The notes under the pieces were generated by a model. The model made no database searches. It had not been told where the DNA came from and saw only the letters and a program-made list of their open reading frames with translations. Shown piece by piece: positions 19,788 through 20,243 of a stretch of DNA of 64,000 nt (position 1 is the first letter of the stretch; each line of letters starts with the position of its first letter). Where the stretch lies: assembly GCF_900188065.1 (NCBI RefSeq), contig NZ_FZNQ01000001.1, positions 248,001 through 312,000 of the forward strand. The letters run 5' to 3'. Origin of the DNA: Halorubrum vacuolatum (GTDB lineage Archaea > Halobacteriota > Halobacteria > Halobacteriales > Haloferacaceae). Position numbers and translations under genes: made by a program.

Positions 19788-19797
19788 AGTATATAAA
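19788..19797 (+). promoter_or_regulatory. Strong TATA box upstream of the hairpin locus
   Basis: AGTATATAAA preceded by a CCGCCGCCG stretch is a near-consensus haloarchaeal TATA element. Initiation is expected about 25 nt downstream, near 19818, just before the first palindrome. No start codon with a sensible reading frame follows, so the product may be a non-coding RNA. Confidence 0.55.
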
Positions 19798-19831
19798 CGA
19801 CTACGACACCCACCCACTACGTTCGGCGCGC

Positions 19832-19861
19832 CCGCTCAGCGCCGATATCGGCGCTGAGCGG
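19832..19861. repeat. Perfect 30-bp palindrome
   Basis: CCGCTCAGCGCCGAT is followed directly by its exact reverse complement, with the symmetry axis between 19846 and 19847. As RNA it would form a stem of about 13 bp with a tiny loop; as DNA it is a possible cruciform or dimer binding site. Confidence 0.95.
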
Positions 19862-19872
19862 ACCGCGAGGGA

Positions 19873-19911
19873 GGTGGGCGGACGCCGGACGCCTCTCGGC
19901 GTCCGCCCACC
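19873..19911. repeat. Inverted repeat, 15-bp arms, 9-nt loop
   Basis: GGTGGGCGGACGCCG at 19873-19887 pairs perfectly with 19897-19911 across the loop GACGCCTCT. The stem is very GC-rich and would be stable even in high salt. No T-run follows, so it does not look like a terminator. Confidence 0.95.
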
Positions 19912-19956
19912 GAGGCTGGGGAGGTTCGAGGTCATCGCCGGGCGAACACGGCCGTC

Positions 19957-20034
19957 GTGATCGGTACGATTGATGAACGACAGGGCCTGTCGCTCCGCTC
20001 GCCCATCGTGCCGGTCATCAATCGTACCGATCAC
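19957..20034. repeat. Inverted repeat, 20-bp arms, 38-nt loop with nested hairpin
   Basis: The arm at 19957-19976 (beginning GTGATCGGTACG) is the perfect reverse complement of 20015-20034. Within the loop CGACAG and CTGTCG (19978-19992) form a small inner hairpin around GGC. The arms could be terminal inverted repeats of a tiny element or the closing stem of an RNA. Confidence 0.94.
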
Positions 20035-20090
20035 CCGTCATCCCGGTGCCCAAACTGCCTCTTTATCCCGTTTCATGGCATCCGAGACGT

Positions 20091-20243
20091 ATGGCAACCG
20101 AGCAACAGTACGAATACAGGTGTGTCGCGATCGTCGGATTCGGCGGGAAGACGACCCGTATATTAAACGAGTATGCCCGGGACGGCTGGGAACTCGTCGA
20201 GGTCACGTGGATCTGGCACTACCTCAAGCGACCGGTCGACTGA
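20091..20243 (+). CDS. DUF4177-type mini-protein
   Basis: A 50-residue protein beginning MATEQQYEYRCVAIVG. The pattern with a beta strand, LNEYARDGWELVEVTW, and a closing LKRP is that of the DUF4177 family of small alpha/beta proteins with unknown role. The ATG at 20091 lies 28 nt after the centre of CTCTTTATCC, fitting a leaderless transcript; an ATG-like start 15 codons upstream would precede the expected transcript start. It is followed by the trp promoter region. Confidence 0.75.
   Translation: MATEQQYEYRCVAIVGFGGKTTRILNEYARDGWELVEVTWIWHYLKRPVD

Follow-up and report, generated by a model that had tools for sequence, protein, structure and literature searches.

Downstream of deoC, the window (the whole 64,000-nucleotide stretch of Halorubrum vacuolatum DNA analysed here) carries a near-consensus TATA box followed by three inverted repeats, which raises the question of what kind of genetic object this arrangement represents. 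The first-pass annotation of positions 19788-20034 had described these features, had called the arms of the three repeats unrelated in sequence and had suggested, among other options, a new structured non-coding RNA. The TATA box and all three repeats were found where it had placed them, and the arms indeed show no sequence kinship to one another (Table 1). Its statement that no protein frame follows the expected transcript start has to be qualified: frames of at least 60 amino acids cross the stretch, and nothing suggests that they are coding. From the position of the TATA box, a transcript start would be expected near 19820. The region 19818-20050 folds with -139.9 kcal/mol (z -6.4) and the core 19820-19931 with -79.1 kcal/mol (z -6.0); in both cases 0 of 200 shuffled sequences folded as well. 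In the predicted fold, the GCG of the linker GCGAGGGAG also pairs at the base of hairpin P1 (19827-19830 with 19864-19867). The outer 20 bp of the third inverted repeat are perfect, and an imperfect hairpin lies inside.

Table 1. Features of the locus downstream of deoC (positions in the window). R1, covariance model of the core; R2, second core model.
Feature	Position	Strand	Evidence or detail
TATA box tatataaa	19790-19797	+	sequence; 35 nt 5' of the GGCGCG of the element
Element core (domains 1 and 2), short form	19825-19931	+	R1 90.2 bits; R2 81.6 bits, E 2.3e-15
Hairpin P1, a 30-bp perfect palindrome	19832-19861	+	Watson-Crick variant of a usually G.A-bearing stem
Invariant linker GCGAGGGAG	19865-19873	+	copy alignments
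Hairpin P2	19873-19911	+	perfect 15-bp arms 19873-19887/19897-19911, 9-nt loop
Conserved 3' linker CGAGGCTGGGGAGG, then TTCGAGG (family: YGTGAGG)	19911-19931	+	
Third inverted repeat	19957-20034	no strand	26-bp arms 19957-19982/20009-20034, 92%

When the region was used as a DNA query, its first half matched in 45 of the 52 genomes of the genus. The aligned copies have a common layout, GGCGCGCC - hairpin - GCGAGGGAG - hairpin - CGAGGCTGGGGAGG-YGTGAGG, in which both stems vary and the linkers show little or no variation. With R1, about 31 core copies are found in the window's own genome. Among the matches listed, named records with the exact linker pair belong mainly to Halorubrum, and also to Haloparvum, Halorussus and Halobellus. 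Core copies also lie just beyond both ends of the window, at contig positions 244157-244264 and 312359-312806; the latter are two copies in opposite orientation, approximately 240 bp apart.

The third inverted repeat behaves differently from the core. In a DNA search of the genus, the close relative G035 was the sole other genome to contain it, in the corresponding position, and it is not a member of the dispersed family. The TATA box and the three hairpins thus comprise two objects, the core as the repeat unit and hairpin 3 apart from it. The element site 3' of deoC is common only to the window and G035 among the species compared, and hairpin 3 lies outside the repeated unit, so that a single RNA gene belonging to this place is not supported. 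A regulator of deoC or trpD was likewise rejected, as the region 3' of deoC differs in the other species compared. A 50-aa frame 3' of the element (20091-20243, + strand, MATEQQYEYRC...) matches DUF4177 barely above the cut-off; such a frame after deoC was seen only in the window and G035.

Many relatives carry a longer element. Its full order is TATA box, P1, GAGGGAG linker, P2, GAGGCTGGGGAGG linker and domain 3, the last (approximately 125 nt) consisting of CTCAAAGGGG, a long hairpin P3 of approximately 100 nt and GGGGCTTTGG. P3 is built of 2-bp helices alternating with G.A loops. Domain 3 is present in about half of the copies (110 of 204), and the domain-3 model (R3) matches 227 of 292 haloarchaeal genomes, distributed over 63 of 77 genera. 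At least 150 copies, scoring at least 110 bits each with R3, are present in a single complete genome of 3.0 Mb from the genus, and related forms, ACTGAAAGGGG...GGGGCTTTC, are found on Natrinema and Halobaculum plasmids. In many relatives domain 3 takes the place that the third inverted repeat occupies in the window; the two are unrelated in sequence. Since R3 gave a single weak match in the window's species and no match of note in the window, with none at 19957-20034, this species has the short form, nearly all of its copies lacking domain 3. The earlier suggestion of a tiny decayed element can be kept in this sense, as a copy without the domain 3 of many relatives, and as one of many dispersed copies. 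Downstream of domain 3, many copies carry tandem units of approximately 57-70 bp that include additional TATA boxes. Each locus has its own unit sequence, and the units therefore seem to have been duplicated in place. At L328:1604-1713 a 57-bp unit of this kind, with a TATA box inside, is present in 1.9 identical copies.

Of 84 aligned copies, 64 have tandem G.A pairs in P1, and in the others this stem is nearly always fully Watson-Crick paired. The P1 of the window belongs to this minority and looks like a perfect palindrome because Watson-Crick pairs substitute for G.A; its 30-bp palindrome is a variant hairpin and no special site. The stems change in a compensatory manner, and as the copies share ancestry and exchange sequence, the following counts of double-changed paired cells are neither independent events nor probabilities: 65 against 20.1 after shuffling for 20 freely aligned core copies (A1; 0 of 500 shuffles), 465 against 129.6 in a model-fitted alignment of 85 core copies (A2), 67 against 21.3 at the orthologous site beside rad50 (A3), where the stems were rewritten and pairing was kept, and 303 against 80.4 in a model-fitted alignment of 70 domain-3 copies (A5), in which 99.7% of the cells are paired. 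In a free alignment of 30 domain-3 copies (A4), double changes occur in 23 of 30 pairs. The covariation signal is lost when the partner columns are slid by 1-3 positions. A mere DNA palindrome would be expected to show equal numbers of G.T and A.C mismatches on a given strand. The core stems contain 36 G.U and 10 A.C pairs (32:9 in distinct contexts, p 4e-4), and the domain 3 stems 94 and 2 (31:2 in distinct contexts), one pair being a near-constant U.G. The excess of G.U therefore marks the + strand as the RNA. Tandem G.A pairs, a domain 3 built on G.A loops and the G.U bias are together what an RNA of the + strand would give.

The copies within one genome are mosaics, in which domain 3 can be identical between copies that differ in P1 and P2 and have unrelated flanks, and domain identities between copies are weakly correlated or uncorrelated. 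Hairpins have been replaced by unrelated ones at the same site. At L080, L154, L195 and L212 the segment between the arms of domain 3 is inverted, and the P2 loop GACGCCTCT of the window is inverted in the G035 orthologue (L009), where it reads AGAGGCGTC. The mosaics, the hairpin replacement and the inverted interiors suggest that copies recombine with one another, both at the linkers and across the arms. The same observations speak for a DNA-only palindromic repeat, in which compensation would result from template switching or from conversion of one arm by the other, and the exchange of hairpins would take place as DNA, with no function at the RNA level; 'switch' and inverted small repeats are also contained in the palindromes of Haloquadratum (PMC3119063). 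We consider this explanation very improbable. Correction of this kind should erase tandem G.A pairs, yet the 64 copies still keep them, hardly any A.C is seen in stems with frequent G.U, and the covariation of domain 3 lies in 2-bp helices separated by G.A loops, an arrangement unlike a palindromic arm.

TATA boxes accompany the family and not only the window copy. In 189 copies with distinct flanks, TATA hexamers on the element strand peak at -25 to -15 before GGCGCG (the three 5-bp bins of this interval hold 30, 45 and 10 copies, most of the others 0-4), and a second peak lies near -55; the TATA box of the window is located approximately 10 nt farther out than the family peak. Altogether, 152 copies could be placed in their genomic context: 61 lie in convergent gaps, 67 in co-directional and 15 in divergent gaps, and nine inside a predicted frame, a class that rests on a rough gene caller. 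Convergent gaps are enriched, with 61 of the 143 flanked copies compared to approximately a quarter of gene pairs. Copies often start approximately 100 nt past the preceding gene. Enriched convergent gaps, rare divergent ones and this distance would suit an element of 3' ends, the hairpins of which stop transcription or guard the RNA ends of the neighbours in both directions. However, the co-directional copies show no preferred orientation (33 and 34), and this balance indicates that the orientation of the element is independent of that of the neighbouring genes. In the 85 copies, the core is followed by G+C-rich sequence without the T run of an intrinsic terminator; TATA boxes on the element strand would be unexpected for a terminator, and selection against promoter disruption alone would yield the identical gap preference. 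A role at 3' ends is thus improbable. Regular spacing along the chromosome was also rejected, as the gaps between copies in G022 have a coefficient of variation of 0.86 among the matches listed, which is close to random.

Positions of the element are conserved in part. Sixteen of the 30 own copies are found at the equal place in G035, the assembly of which is incomplete. Empty sites were sought with a single composite query of the flanks. Three other sites lack the element in G035, but their intergenic flanks also differ, and neither a clean junction nor a target duplication is discernible there. Beside rad50 (L291-L320), at least 17 of the 30 species examined carry the element, all in one orientation, with a small gene on the opposite side that by our reading encodes a DUF7346-like protein. 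The copies in common with G035 and the conserved rad50 site suggest slow turnover, and a host role is possible. Rad50 is the partner of the hairpin-cleaving Mre11 nuclease; the adjacency is probably a coincidence, and a link to palindrome stability is possible. A linked protein partner was rejected, since among the recurrent neighbourhoods only rad50-DUF7346 is informative, and it recurs because it is one orthologous site. The largest cluster of neighbouring proteins resembled G+C-rich spurious frames, and no mobilising gene was found in the neighbourhoods of the copies.

The main rival explanation is a multi-copy RNA family of benefit to the host. Its members would be small RNA genes with their own promoters, multiplied by ordinary recombination, and their RNA would act in trans, for instance as a decoy that binds protein via the repeated G.A motifs and the purine-rich linkers; the 3'-end element and the DNA-only repeat are weaker. 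Constraint at the RNA level, the TATA boxes, the rad50 site with its kept orientation and the wide distribution of domain 3 over genera are all in line with such RNA genes. On the other hand, at least 150 dispersed and mosaic copies in one genome would be unusual for a needed RNA gene, positions are mostly unshared, and domain 3 is nearly absent from the window's species. We therefore regard a beneficial host RNA as rather unlikely.

The element is, in our estimation, somewhat more probably a transcribed, non-autonomous and slowly mobile structured-RNA element, comparable to a SINE or MITE, than anything else; its transcription and its mobility are both deduced from sequence. In this case, a short RNA would start near the TATA box and fold into the hairpins of the element, and the folded strand might be recognised by a factor acting in trans. 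Copies would be spread by machinery encoded elsewhere, and hairpins would be exchanged between copies via recombination at the invariant linkers. The early idea of a new structured non-coding RNA is supported in fold and conservation, by the compensatory changes, the G.U bias, the TATA distance and the lack of an Rfam family. The opposite concern, that the arms might be scattered as ordinary transposon ends, did not materialise: it is the linkers and the foldability that repeat and not the arms, and tnpB is not in excess. None of the results speaks to a replication or anti-silencing site, which the annotation had also listed. More tentatively, the family may represent an undescribed class of elements that pervades the haloarchaea, RNA-based and either mobile or symbiotic, promoter-bearing and modular, and used or moved in trans by a putative protein. 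Members of such a class would have up to three hairpin domains and at least 150 copies in some genomes, with hairpins shuffled at invariant linkers.

The element composed of core and domain 3 matches no Rfam family. With Rfam 15, no match at the gathering score was obtained in the window or in six loci that include full-length copies, and the region likewise gave none at a permissive threshold; SRP RNA and RNase P RNA, the motifs of which had already been noted as missing, are thereby rejected together with the other families. A viral or phage origin was rejected as well, with no exact pattern match in IMG/VR and no match in the INPHARED phages. REP/BIME, ERIC, BOX, RUP and nemis are high-copy intergenic hairpin repeats of bacteria. 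No sequence relation to these was recognised, and in contrast to them the present family has three domains, with domain 3 widespread in archaea. HEARO/IscB and TnpB-associated RNAs are likewise structured and present in many copies without an adjacent protein gene; unlike these, the six loci of full-length type have no Rfam match and there is no excess of tnpB. Ends of IS605/tnpB elements or an omega RNA were rejected, as R2 and R3 placed the element at one of 30 tnpB loci, about the expectation from its density, and the end motifs were otherwise absent.

The closest known systems are found in Haloquadratum walsbyi, where palindrome-associated transposable elements (PATEs) and short mobile repeats (SMRs) have been described (PMC3119063). 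PATEs resemble the present family in being haloarchaeal, high-copy, non-coding, palindromic and heterogeneous in sequence, and in lacking terminal inverted repeats; no target duplication has been reported for them (PMC3119063). In our aligned copies the ends GGCGCG and GTGAGG do not form an inverted pair, and hence there are no terminal inverted repeats; near-terminal palindromes of the PATE type are present, the hairpins being internal. However, PATEs are tied to ends of the IS605 type (PMC3119063), whereas the present family shows no link to tnpB beyond chance, and its promoter-like TATA spacing and RNA-level covariation are outside the PATE description (PMC3119063). SMRs are similar in length (approximately 110 bp), have many copies, no target duplication and an unexplained mobilisation, and lie in or as palindromes (PMC3119063). 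They differ in having terminal inverted repeats and more than 95% identity within a type, where the present family combines invariant linkers with divergent stems, and they target PATEs and IS605 elements, while our copies lie mostly in ordinary intergenic DNA. A halite metatranscriptome contains conserved haloarchaeal intergenic RNAs without an assigned function (PMC7002113). In the open-licence literature we found the Haloquadratum PATEs and SMRs and no description of the present family; an earlier one elsewhere is possible.

As a high-copy structured RNA element without an Rfam match, the family would rank with the most abundant non-coding features of haloarchaea, with domain 3 in most genomes sampled. 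It supplies ready covariance models and a large natural set of mosaics in which hairpins change while pairing is kept, and it poses a concrete question in organisms amenable to culture and manipulation, namely what transcribes, binds or moves the element. Haloarchaeal annotation and small-RNA surveys should handle this repeat family. Two further segments were observed within copies of the element. A second recurring segment, GTTCCCGCGAGCG...GGGAGCACGGAAGTCGCAGC...CGTCTTCCGG, lies between domains 2 and 3 in the manner of a nested repeat; its carriers are L071, L081, L087, L089, L397, L403 and L405. At L026:1560-1720, a segment with palindromic ends, ATAGTGATTACTGCGA...TCGCAGTAATCACTAT, interrupts domain 3 directly after GGGACTCA and is probably a MITE insertion.
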